A stretch of DNA of 63,979 bases. Origin: an uncultured Pelagibacteraceae bacterium (GTDB lineage: Bacteria > Pseudomonadota > Alphaproteobacteria > Pelagibacterales > Pelagibacteraceae). Below, piece after piece: positions 4,619 through 9,900 of the stretch (positions within the stretch are counted from its first letter, which is position 1; the number at the start of each line of letters is the position of its first letter). The stretch spans positions 68,085-132,063 of the forward strand of contig CACNWU010000001.1 of the NCBI GenBank assembly GCA_902624185.1. The letters run 5' to 3'. Below the pieces are notes generated by a model. It saw nothing but the letters and a program-made list of their open reading frames with translations, was not told the DNA's origin and did not search any database. Position numbers and translations under genes: made by a program.

Positions 4619-5166
4619 ATGGTCATTATTTCTTTTTCTTTTGTAGAAACTTTATCATCTACAATTTTAATATGATTATCAGTGATAGTTTGAATATTTT
4701 TTTCGAAAGATTTTTCCTCATCCTCACCTATTTCTTTAGATTTAAGAAGTTTCTTTAGTTCCTCATTTGCATCTCTTCTAATATTTCTTATAGAGATTTT
4801 ACATTTTTCTCCCATTGATTTAATGAGTTTTTTTAATTCTATTCTTCTTTCTTCATTCAATTCAGGAATAGGCAATCTAACTAACTGACCATCAATTTGT
4901 GGATTTAAGCCAAGCTCTGATTTTTTAATAGCTGCATCAACTAGAGGAACATTATTTTGGTCCCAAACTTGTATGTTAATCATTCTTGGTTCTGGTGTTG
5001 TAATACTTGCAACTTGATTAATCGGCATTTGTTGACCGTAAACATCTACTTTTATCAAATCCAACATTGCTGCGTTCGCTCTTCCTGTTCTTAGTGATGA
5101 TAGCTCTTTTGAAAATGCTTCAATAGATTTGTCCATTTTAAGGTTATGTGATTTTTCATCGAACAT
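4615..5166 (-). CDS. frr: Ribosome recycling factor
   Basis: 183 residues, normal for RRF (about 185). The segments SLRTGRANAAMLD, VYGQQMPINQVASI and PEPRMINIQVWD near the N-terminus, and the charged helical C-terminal half with IRNIRRDANEELKKL, are family hallmarks. RRF splits post-termination ribosomes together with EF-G. The start codon is immediately next to the tsf stop codon (0 bp gap). In most proteobacteria pyrH lies between tsf and frr, but there is no space for it here. Confidence 0.97.
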   Translation of the reverse strand: MFDEKSHNLKMDKSIEAFSKELSSLRTGRANAAMLDLIKVDVYGQQMPINQVASITTPEPRMINIQVWDQNNVPLVDAAIKKSELGLNPQIDGQLVRLPIPELNEERRIELKKLIKSMGEKCKISIRNIRRDANEELKKLLKSKEIGEDEEKSFEKNIQTITDNHIKIVDDKVSTKEKEIMTI

Positions 5167-6018
5167 CTATTCACCTATTTTAATCCTGCTGAACTCCTTA
5201 ATCTTAAGATCATTTATAGCAAGTTCTCTTAAAACATCTTGAACTTTCTTTTTTGGTTCCATAACCCAAGCTTGAGTTAAAAGAGAATTTTCTTCTTTAA
5301 ATTTATTCATCTTACCTAAACTAATTTTTTTGGCAATATCTTCTGGTTTGCCAGAGTTTTTGAGTTCTTCCGTCACTAGTTCTTGTTCTTTATCAATAAT
5401 AGATTTATCTATTAAGCTAGATTCTAGTGCTAATGGATTTGAAGCAGCTATATGCATAGAAAGTTGTTTGCCAAAATTTTTTACAGTATCTGAATTATCT
5501 TTTGTTTCTAAAGAAACTACAACTGCTAGCTTTGCTAAATTGTCTTTTACAACGGTGTGTAAATATTTGTAATTTGTTGTTGTGGAATTTGAAATTGTTT
5601 TAGCTTTTCCAATCGTTATTTTTTCTCCAATTTTAGCAATTAATGCTACCAATGTTTCTTCAACGGTAGTTCCATTCTTCATTTTACTTTTGTTCAATTC
5701 ATCTATATTTGAATTTTTTTCATTATTTAACTCACTTAATTCTTTTACAAAATTTATAAAATCATCATTTTTTGCAACAAAATCAGTTTCACAGTTTACT
5801 TCAATTATAGATGTCTTTTTCTCATCTCCACTCACTGCAACCACACCTTCTTTAGCATCTCTAGACATTTTTTTTGAAGCTTTAGAAATACCTTTAACTC
5901 TTAAAATTTCTACAGCCTTATCTAAATCTCCATTAGACTCTTTGATTGCTAAATTACAATCTTTAAATCCTGCACCAGTTGCTTCTCTTAATTTTTTTAC
6001 TTTTTCTATATCACTCAT
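5167..6018 (-). CDS. tsf: Translation elongation factor Ts
   Basis: 283 residues. The N-terminal UBA-like domain contains [18 protein letters not shown], and the dimerisation/core domain has the signature [13 protein letters not shown]-Ts exchanges GDP for GTP on EF-Tu. The gene starts 1 bp after the rpsB stop, the nearly universal rpsB-tsf pairing, and is presumably controlled from the rpsB leader. The TDFVAKN motif and the later helical domains are complete. Confidence 0.97.
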
Positions 6019-6019
6019 A

Positions 6020-6838
6020 TTAGTTAAGTTTTTCTTCGCTTTTTTTTGAAAACTTTTTTTCTAATTTATCTCTATCTATTTCAGCAACTGTTTTATTTTT
6101 TTTAGCGTTATCACTTTTTTTATCTTGAGACTTTTTTAAATCTGTCTTTGGTACAGTTTTCTGAGCTGATATAATAGTATCTTTAATTAAATTACAATAT
6201 AAGTCTATTGATCTTCTAGCATCATCATTTCCAGGTATAGGAAAATCTATTCCATCTGGATTCGAATTACTGTCTAATATAGCAATAATTGGTATGCCTA
6301 GTTTTACTGACTCTTGTATAGCTAATGATTCATAGTTTGTATCAATTATGAAAACCAGATCTGGAATTTTTTTCATTTCCGCAATTCCACCAAGAGATCT
6401 TTGTAATTTATCCTTTTTTACACTCATTTTAAGAAGTTCTTTTTTTGTAAAACCTCTATTTTCAGCAACTAAATCAATCTCTATTTTTTTAAGTTTTTTA
6501 ATTGAGTTAGATATTGTTCCCCAATTAGTTAGCATACCCCCTAGCCATCTATAGTTCACAAAATATTGATCTGTCTCTTTTGCAAGTTCTGCTATTGCCT
6601 CTGAGGCTTGTTTTTTTGTAGAAACAAACAAAATTTTTCCATTATTTTGAATAGTTTCATAGATTTTTTCTAAAGCAACTTTCGTCAGCTCCAAGGTTTG
6701 GGTGAGATCAATTATATGTATTGCGTCTCTCTTCCCAAAGATGTACTTCTTCATTTTTGGATTCCATCTTAGTGTTTTATGACCTAGATGAACTCCAGCT
6801 TCTAGTAATTGTTGGATTGTAACGTTTGGTATTTTCAT
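6020..6838 (-). CDS. rpsB: 30S ribosomal protein S2
   Basis: 272 residues. The core of about 225 residues shows the S2 signatures [37 protein letters not shown] and the [25 protein letters not shown] segment. The last 45 or so residues form a Lys/Ser/Asp-rich, low-complexity tail absent from E. coli S2 (241 residues). The ATG at 6838 fits the conserved [15 protein letters not shown] start and lies about 8 nt downstream of a GGGAA ribosome-binding sequence inside a possible regulatory helix. First gene of the rpsB-tsf-frr-uppS-cdsA-dxr-bamA run. Confidence 0.97.
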
Positions 6839-6922
6839 ATTTATTCCCGGTTAAGCCACCACAGTAATTTCCATTTAAGGACCGGAGGTATAAAACCAAT
6901 AACTGTGTGCGTATTTATTTAA
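6839..6922 (-). ncRNA. Putative structured rpsB leader with pseudoknot
   Basis: The roughly 84-nt leader between the predicted start of transcription and rpsB can form two crossing helices. CACAGU (6907-6902) pairs with ACUGUG (6865-6860), and UCCGGU (6886-6881) pairs with ACCGGG (6851-6846), giving an H-type pseudoknot. The second helix buries the GGGAA ribosome-binding region. S2 is known to repress rpsB-tsf through the leader in E. coli, and structured rpsB leaders have been proposed in alphaproteobacteria, so autoregulation by S2 is the natural reading. Pairing was found by eye; no covariance was tested. Confidence 0.5.
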
Positions 6923-6929
6923 TTAGAGC

Positions 6930-6957
6930 TATCTACTATATTTGAAAAAATTGACAA
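6930..6957 (-). promoter_or_regulatory. Sigma-70-type promoter for rpsB
   Basis: Reading the minus strand, a -35-like TTGTCA (6957-6952) is followed after 16 nt by a -10-like TAGATA (6935-6930). This puts transcription start near 6922 and leaves an 84-nt leader. It lies in the only gap of this region, just after the dnaE stop, so the rpsB operon need not depend on read-through from upstream genes. Confidence 0.5.
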
Positions 6958-6964
6958 GTGTTAA

Positions 6965-9900
6965 TTACCTAATAACTGATGGAATCTGGTTATTTTTAAG
7001 TAAATTCACTGATTTTCGATCAACTTTTCTTGGATTTTTAAGCTCGAAAAGAAGAATTTTTTTATCTTTTTCTAGCTCGATAGAAACTTTAGTATTGCCT
7101 TTTTCTTTTAAAATTTCTGAAATTTCATTTAATTGATTGTTAGATTTGATTTTAAAAACAATTGATGAAATTGGACTATTAAATAAATCTTTTAAGGATG
7201 CTATTTTTTGAACATTAATTCTTTTAAATCTATTATCGTCATTTGTAATAGATTTAACTAATGTTAAAATTAAAGAACTACCTTCCTTTAAAATTTCTCT
7301 ATTTAATTCTAAAGTATCTGAAAAAATAAATAATTCAAAAACACTTGACAAATCTGTCATTTTTAAGACTGCATAAGAATTTCCTTTTGCTGTTTTTCTT
7401 TCTTGTATTTTCAATAAAGTAGACGCAATATTTGCCTCTTTTAAGTTTTGATCATTATTAAATGATTGATAATCAATTATATTATAATCGTTAAATATTT
7501 CTTTAAACTGATTTAAAGGGTGATCAGATATAAAAAAACCGACAGCTTCAAATTCTTTTGACAATCTTTCCTCGAATTTCCAATCATTGATATCTAATAC
7601 AATTTCATCCTCTTGATTTTCATTAACACCAAATAAGTCTATTTGATTAGCAGATTTATTTTCAAAAATATTTTTAGACTTAACAATAAAGTTTGGAATA
7701 GAATTAAATAAAGATTGTCTATTTGGATTAAGAGAGTCAAAAGCTCCAGCCTTTACTAAACCTTCTAACTGAAGTTTGTTTATATCTTTTGGATTTACAC
7801 GGTCCAGGAAATCACTGATTGAATTAAACTTACCATTTTTTGATCTTTCTTTAACAATATTAGAAATAGCCTCAAAACCTACAGCTTTAATACCACCTAG
7901 GGCATAATAAAACATTTTATCATCAGTTTTAAAATCAGCAAAACACTCATTTATATCTGGTCTAACAATTTGAACATTTAATCTTTTGAGCTCTTCATAA
8001 AATTCACTTAGCTTATTTTGATTTGAAATATCCATTGTCATTGAAGCTGCAATAAATTCTTTGGGGTAATATGTTTTTAAAAAAGCAGTTTGATAGGAAA
8101 TAATAGCATAGGCAGCAGCATGACTTTTGTTAAATCCATATTCAGCAAAAGGTTCTATCTTTAAAAAAATTCCAGCGGCAACATCTTTACTAATGCCGTT
8201 ATTTACTGCTCCTGCAATAAAACTTTGTTTTTGTTTTTCTAATTCAGCTCTTTTCTTTTTACCCATCGCTCTCCTTAAAATATCTGCTTGACCAGCGGTA
8301 AATCCAGATAATTTTTGAGCAATTTGCATTACTTGTTCTTGATAAATAATTACACCATAAGTTGGTTTCAGAATTTCTTCTAAAAGTGGGTGAAGATAAT
8401 CAGGTGTTTGATTTCCATTTTTACAATCATTATATGTGGGAATATTACTCATAGGACCTGGTCGATAGAGTGCTACAAGTGCAATAATATCTTCTATATG
8501 GTTTGGTTTCATTTGCATTAGCGCTTCCCTCATACCAGCACTTTCAATTTGAAATAATCCCATTGTTTTTCCCGAGGATAACAATTCAAAAACTTTCTGA
8601 TCCTCAAAATTAATATTTTCAATATTGAAGTCTTTTATTTTTTTTCTTATTAACTTTTGAGTATTATTTATAACTGTAAGAGTTTTTAATCCCAAAAAAT
8701 CGAACTTTATTAGACCTGCATTTTCTGCAGAGTACATATCAAATTGTGTTGATGGTAATAATAAGTTTGCTGTTACATCTTTGTATAACGGGACAACTTC
8801 ACTAAGTTTTTTATCTGCTATAACTACTCCAGCTGCATGGGTTGCAACATTTCTATTTAATCCTTCCAGTTTTAGAGAGAGGTCAGTTAGTTTTTTTACT
8901 CTAGGATCTTCATTAATAAGTTTTTGAAGTCTGGGTTCTCCAGCAATGCATTCACTCAAATTTTGTGGCCTGGATGGATCAAATGGTATCATTTTTGAAA
9001 TATTATCAACAAAACCGTATGCTAAACCTAAAACTCTACCAACATCTCGTATAACCATTCTAGCTTTGAGTTTTCCAAAAGTAATGATGTGAGCAACACT
9101 TTCTTTATATTTTTTTGTTAAATATTCAAAAACTAGATCTCTTTTTTCTTCACAAAAATCTATATCAAAATCTGGCATTGATATTCGATCAGGATTCAAA
9201 AATCTTTCAAAAATTAAATTAAATTTAATCGGATCTACATCTGTTATTGAAAGACACCAAGCCACTAAAGATCCTGCACCAGAGCCTCTACCAGGTCCAA
9301 CTGGAATATCATTTTCCTTAGCCCACTTGATATAATCAGACACAATTAAAAAATAACTAGCATATTTCATTTCTATGATGATATTTAACTCATGATCTAA
9401 TCTATCCTTATATCGTAAATAATTTTTATCATTTTTAAGTTGTTCATTTTTAATTTTAAAAATATTAATAAACTTTTCTTTTAGACCGCTTAAAGAGTTA
9501 TTTTTTAAAGTTTCTTCTGCATCTCCACCTTTTTCAGAACTAATGTTTGGTAAAATAGGTTTTGAAAAAGAAGGCTTAAAACTACAACGATATGGAAAAT
9601 TAAAGTTGTTTTCCAAAGCCTCGGGTATATCAGCAAATAATTCTGACATTTCGATATCTTTTTTAAAATAATGTTGATTACTTAATCTAAATCTATTCTT
9701 TTCATTTATATAAGTTTTGTTTTTTATACAAATAAGAGCATCATGAGCTTCATGCATATCTTTATTCATATAAAAGACTTCATGGGTCGCAATTAATGGA
9801 ATTTCTAAATCTGAAGATTTTGATAAATTAAATTTTTCAAAACTAATCTCATTTTCATCACCATGTCGTTGAATTTCAATATAAAATCTGTTTCCATAAT

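Follow-up and report, generated by a model that had tools for sequence, protein, structure and literature searches.

The rpsB leader of a Pelagibacteraceae bacterium carries the published rpsB motif, whose pseudoknot overlaps the Shine-Dalgarno-like stretch

The leader of rpsB in an uncultured Pelagibacteraceae bacterium folds into a three-way junction (helices P1, P2 and P3) with a pseudoknot, and this pseudoknot, which had been predicted from the letters of a single stretch of DNA (63,979 nt, hereafter the window), was read correctly and belongs to a real element that had already been published. The rpsB motif was reported in 2009 in the dnaE-rpsB region of 'Cand. Pelagibacter ubique', where it is described as P1, a P2 of three pairs, a P3 of two pairs and a pseudoknot between the P2-P3 joiner and a 3' extension of P1; the authors tied it to the S2 feedback of E. 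coli (Meyer et al., PMC2704228). Because the leader element is the published motif with its pseudoknot, the finding is essentially known. Our analysis confirmed the pseudoknot as a real conserved structure on several hundred leaders and genomes, and contributed a comparative anatomy of the ribosome-binding site together with a matched double change within the genus.

The genome from which the window comes comprises 917,381 bases in 34 contigs and is 80% complete. Its dnaE ends at 6965, leaving an intergenic rpsB leader of 126 nt (6964-6839), and the features of the locus are collected in Table 1. We take the genes to be rpsB, dnaE and tsf from their sequences and order, and S2 was additionally searched for as a protein. 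The gene directly after tsf is frr (junction 5166-5167); pyrH, which usually lies between tsf and frr, is absent there. A model of the bacterial UMP kinase passed its cut-off in one of six genomes (G002, of the other family) and gave weak partial matches of 34.8-41.9 bits, in longer frames, in the window's genome and in four more of its family (G003, G005, G011 and G001); these longer frames presumably resemble other amino-acid kinases.

Table 1. Genes and leader parts at the rpsB locus (window positions).
Feature	Position	Strand	Remarks
tsf (elongation factor Ts), next after rpsB	5167..6018	-	ORF, 283 aa
rpsB (ribosomal protein S2)	6020..6838	-	ORF, 272 aa
GGGAA, the leader's only Shine-Dalgarno-like stretch	6844..6848	-	GGG inside the pseudoknot
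Pseudoknot 3' strand, ACCGGG	6846..6851	-	core ACCGG 6851-6847; covariation in the same sets as for the 5' strand
P1 3' strand	6857..6865	-	ACUGUG 6865-6860, outer pairs 6859-6857
P3 hairpin, CC/GG	6871..6880	-	shuffle test, weaker than P2
Pseudoknot 5' strand, UCCGGU	6881..6886	-	core CCGGU 6885-6881; covariation in the class and in one genus clade
P2 hairpin, GGU/ACC	6887..6897	-	3' arm supplies the ACC of ACCUCC
P1 5' strand	6902..6911	-	CACAGU pairs 6907-6902, outer pairs 6911-6909, bulged A6908

All four strands of the original prediction lie where it placed them and every letter is correct; the two helices (6907-6902/6865-6860 and 6886-6881/6851-6846) do cross, and the second covers the start of GGGAA, namely the GGG at 6848-6846 of 6848-6844. 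The crossing helices are conserved; the fold as a whole is not a bare H-type pseudoknot, as P2, P3 and a P1 lengthened by three pairs make a three-way junction. The outer pairs of P1 with the bulged A6908, P2 and P3 are all present in the nested minimum-energy fold.

A single leader sequence carries little of this argument. When the 126-nt leader was shuffled 400 times with its dinucleotides preserved, 399 of the shuffles contained crossing helices of at least 6 bp and 225 scored at least as well as the real leader; for the 84-nt stretch the corresponding counts were 759 and 180 of 1000, and the nested fold was no stabler than its shuffles (z 0.03). Since the single sequence does not rise above chance, its stability was dropped as evidence, and the evidence for the fold rests on comparison.

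Relatives were gathered by searching for the S2 protein, since selection of leaders by the motif itself was to be avoided. S2 matches were obtained in 164 of 197 genomes of the order (Pelagibacterales) and in 138 of 142 genomes of the class (other Alphaproteobacteria). S2 is expected to be universal; of the 149 order genomes with a completeness of 90% or more and a contamination of 5% or less, 15 gave no match, for which missing stretches are the likely reason. The order set comprised 109 other leaders (29 loci and 80 stretches) and the class set 88 leaders (28 loci and 60 stretches), with L210 dropped as no start was found; the stretches were picked by the author's choice down the listed S2 matches. 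A MAFFT alignment was built of 93 distinct Pelagibacterales leaders, the window included, in which one row (L017) is mostly gaps owing to wrong coordinates. Named loci of the genus were the best 80 by S2, all labelled Pelagibacteraceae, Pelagibacterales or Pelagibacter; records very near the window may be absent among them. Of these loci, 79 were read for the leader and L265 was left out.

P1 was paired in 97.6% of cells in the 93 Pelagibacterales rows and showed two-sided changes at six of its nine pairs. Over the whole structure, 103 cells carried two-sided changes as against 24.9 in shuffles, a value that none of 500 shuffles reached; with the partners shifted by 1-3 columns, such cells numbered 20 at most. 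The covariation score of the order alignment was likewise significant (0 of 500 shuffles); neither the number of pairs with two-sided changes (6 versus 4.8 in shuffles, reached by 82 of 500) nor that of further pair types (reached by 66 of 500) was significant in this alignment. Across Pelagibacterales the P2 and P3 hairpins persist while their letters vary. When every distinct segment was compared with its own shuffles, 46 of 51 for P2 and 36 of 55 for P3 outdid 95% of them in folding.

In the same 93-row alignment the pseudoknot helix was paired in 95.3% of cells and showed no two-sided changes, which on its own would have left it untested; the wider samples decided the matter. Its outermost pair, U6886.G6846 (a U.G pair), is not conserved and is unpaired in 19 of 92 leaders. 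The five-pair core CCGGU/ACCGG was found in 69 of 69 leaders of the genus and in 20 of 20 of the other family, and 16 of 20 leaders from other genera of the window's family were scored as paired in the core. Three of the remainder (L079, L084 and L088) were misplaced by the score and have ACCGG when read, and L087 has ACCGA, an uncompensated change.

Inside the genus, 77 of the 79 named loci carry the consensus core and the other two carry CCUGU/ACAGG. Searches of 399 genus genomes for a changed middle base in the 5' strand and for a changed middle base in the 3' strand returned the same five genomes, all U-A; both searches demanded intact flanks, and the number of readable consensus leaders among the 399 is not given by them. 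In a tree built from 114 S2 proteins, a single branch (FastTree support 98) sets the seven CCUGU/ACAGG loci apart, and they thus represent one event. Two of them (L245 and L301) share an identical leader and agree in position, and may come from the same genome; the seven therefore stand for at least six genomes. Outside this one clade of the genus, the pseudoknot core showed no covariation in the order.

The class supplied more changes. Sixteen class leaders have a different 3' strand, of which 12 hold its exact complement and all 16 hold it when G-U pairs are allowed; in the controls for those 16 the complement was found in 5/80 (exact) and 23/80 (with G-U), and in shuffled regions in 8.5% and 35%. 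Ten leaders were omitted from this test, two without an anchor (L189 and L207) and eight with doubtful anchors (L045, L060, L094, L108, L158, L164, L202 and L215); in seven of the latter ACCGG is also listed, as the nearer anchor or, in L202, further off. No motif was seen in L189, and L207 reads CUGGU/ACCAG by eye. When both strands were placed by sequence alone, all five pairs were present in 82 of 86 class leaders (L189 omitted), and 14 of 18 off-consensus leaders were fully paired, as against at most 13 in 10,000 permutations; those not fully paired as placed were L180, L194, L207 and L213. The states seen in the class include CUGGU/ACCAG, CCAGU/ACUGG, UCGGU/ACCGA and GCGGU/ACCGU, and E. 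coli K-12 has GGGGU/ACCCC by eye (L219). The check proposed with the original prediction, a search for compensatory changes among relatives, was therefore passed by both helices, by P1 in the order and by the pseudoknot in the genus clade and the class. Taken together, the comparisons show conserved base pairing for P1, for P2 and for the pseudoknot, and less surely for P3.

Compared with the rpsB motif of Meyer et al. (Rfam RF01815), the window's element has the same position before rpsB and the same fold, with no fold difference: a long P1, a three-way junction with P2 and a weaker P3, and a five-pair pseudoknot. Our assignment is based on this anatomy and not on the Rfam cut-off, since the window (6830-6911) scores 31.7 bits against a gathering threshold of 40 (E 0.002 for 6,001 bases), and RF01815 did not appear when the window was scanned at gathering level. 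In a phylum-level draw of 150 genomes, only 7 reached this threshold. The Rfam cut-off thus misses the element here, though nearly all S2-anchored class leaders that were read carry the motif. A further Rfam match, ceN47 at 6760-6691, had an E value of 1.4 and was taken as chance.

The pseudoknot lies close to the start codon. The distance from the end of its core to the AUG is 8 nt in the window, 6-10 nt across the order and, as a median, 17 nt (range 7-25) in 83 class leaders. Pairing with the 16S tail of -4 kcal/mol or stronger between the pseudoknot and the AUG was found in 2 of 109 Pelagibacterales leaders versus 71 of 83 leaders of other Alphaproteobacteria (values are missing for L134, L202 and L207). 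When the pseudoknot strand was included, the Pelagibacterales counts became 65/69 in the genus, 5/20 in other genera of the family and 20/20 in the other family. These counts place the Shine-Dalgarno-like stretch inside the pseudoknot strand for both the genus and the other family; the remaining genera of the window's family have little Shine-Dalgarno sequence at all. In the window, GGGAA before rpsB pairs with the 16S tail at -4.3 kcal/mol, and at 0.4 without the pseudoknot strand; the pseudoknot duplex amounts to -8.1 kcal/mol against that -4.3, loop costs not being counted. Shine-Dalgarno pairing is weak throughout the window, with a median of 0.0 over 51 ATG-start genes (7 of 58 ORFs, all with GTG or TTG starts, were left out), and rpsB ranks 11th among them. 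Given this general weakness, and that in 15 of the 20 leaders from other genera of the family even with the pseudoknot strand, there may be little Shine-Dalgarno sequence to hide.

In eight of the 83 class leaders the pairing is -6.6 kcal/mol or stronger when the pseudoknot strand is counted and weaker than -4 when it is left out, so some other alphaproteobacterial leaders may have merged the two in the same way. Two further arrangements were also met. L201 and L215 have ACCGGAGGU before the AUG, where a strong Shine-Dalgarno sequence (-10.7 kcal/mol) overlaps the pseudoknot strand in a SAR11-like manner, and in L134 and L202 some 80 nt separate the pseudoknot strand from the AUG, as would be expected had an insert been gained between the motif and the start codon.

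The original prediction also placed the 5' strand of the pseudoknot within ACCUCC (6889-6884) and likened this word to the 16S anti-Shine-Dalgarno sequence. The overlap is limited to UCC, the rest of the strand lying outside; ACCUCC consists of the 3' arm of P2 (ACC), a single U and the CC with which the pseudoknot core opens. The likeness is present, as the 16S tail of the window's genome reads GGATTACCTCCTTTCT, and it is not conserved: ACCUCC before GG occurs in 67/69 leaders of the genus, in 0/20 of other genera of the family, in 0/20 of the other family and in 0/86 of the class, five of the last 86 having CCUCCGG. Mimicry of the 16S rRNA was rejected, since P2 and the pseudoknot account for the letters of the word, which disappears beyond the genus (0/126 leaders). 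The 16S 3' tail reads GGATTACCTCC in the window's genome (L217) and also in L216 and L218; a search of 8 Pelagibacterales genomes for the usual form, GGATCACCTCC, found it in none.

The published motif, together with the S2 control demonstrated for the E. coli rpsB leader (Aseev et al. 2008, as cited in PMC2704228 and PMC10931766), points to S2 feedback as the most likely role of the SAR11 rpsB leader, in agreement with the original prediction. In-cell probing is reported to have revealed a likeness to the S2 site on 16S rRNA (Mustoe et al. 2019, via PMC10931766). We consider it probable that the rpsB motif of Pelagibacterales is a cis-acting leader by which S2 limits its own translation, in which a knot closed by S2 would block the 30S subunit. 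P1, P2 and P3 form the three-way junction, with the strand joining P2 and P3 pairing to the nucleotides after P1; excess S2, probably with S1, would bind this fold and repress, a step taken over from E. coli. By holding the knot closed, S2 would then keep the 30S subunit off rpsB, and the output of tsf would fall along with that of rpsB. Exclusion of the 30S subunit is proposed because the 3' strand of the pseudoknot holds the only Shine-Dalgarno-like stretch and the core ends 8 nt from the AUG. That the pseudoknot hides the ribosome-binding site was anatomically right as to the overlap with GGGAA; masking itself, which we infer from this arrangement, is plausible for the SAR11 leader, although the E. 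coli ribosome-binding site, reported to lie outside the operator (PMC10931766), speaks against it.

The leader of E. coli rpsB-tsf resembles that of the window in a P1 starting with CAC and a bulged A, in GGAGG after P1 and in the pseudoknot (by eye, L219), and differs in that its pseudoknot ends 24 nt before the AUG, with a free GAGG between. The E. coli leaders of S4 (alpha operon) and S15 (rpsO), in each of which the gene's own protein binds a pseudoknot at the ribosome-binding site (PMC10931766), are alike by function alone, involving other proteins and other folds. The main text of the report on the motif contains neither the term Shine-Dalgarno nor a discussion of the pseudoknot's position with respect to the ribosome-binding site (PMC2704228), and a literature search, most subscription journals lying outside it, returned no title on the overlap of pseudoknot and Shine-Dalgarno sequence in SAR11.

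Among the alternatives, the strongest, though unlikely, is a pseudoknot that is always formed and on which S2 (and S1) would dock. Repression would then come from S2, alone or with S1, crowding the 30S subunit or trapping it close to the start codon, and the overlap with GGGAA would be incidental to a shortening of the leader. In its favour, 71 of 83 class leaders have a free Shine-Dalgarno sequence beyond this pseudoknot, and in E. coli the ribosome-binding site is reported to lie outside the operator, S2 requires S1, and S1 is a good binder of pseudoknots (PMC10931766); against it, this alternative must count as an accident that the Shine-Dalgarno-like stretch coincides with the pseudoknot strand in both the genus and the other family. 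The E. coli mechanism is called unclear in the same 2024 review (PMC10931766). Transcription attenuation in place of translational control, by which some ribosomal-protein gene leaders such as that of bL20 act (PMC10931766), is very improbable here, as no terminator-like site was found in 6780-7100 and the structure extends as far as the start codon. Pairing by chance in a leader rich in A+T, which the shuffled leaders that do as well (225/400; nested fold z 0.03) would allow, is contradicted by the compensatory changes in both helices and can practically be dismissed. Separately, a promoter just before P1 (TTAACA/TATAGT) was considered and is not supported, one having been found versus 1.3 in shuffles; in the 50 nt before P1, -10-like words occurred in 24 of 68 distinct genus segments as against 49.2 expected by shuffling.

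Within the favoured reading of the motif as a translational S2 leader, it is a tentative further proposal, on balance somewhat doubtful, that in Pelagibacterales the Shine-Dalgarno sequence has merged into the 3' strand of the pseudoknot and S2 directly masks the ribosome-binding site, unlike in E. coli and most other Alphaproteobacteria, which keep a separate, free Shine-Dalgarno sequence downstream. If true, the merged Shine-Dalgarno sequence would offer a clean comparison between direct masking in SAR11 and upstream action in E. coli.
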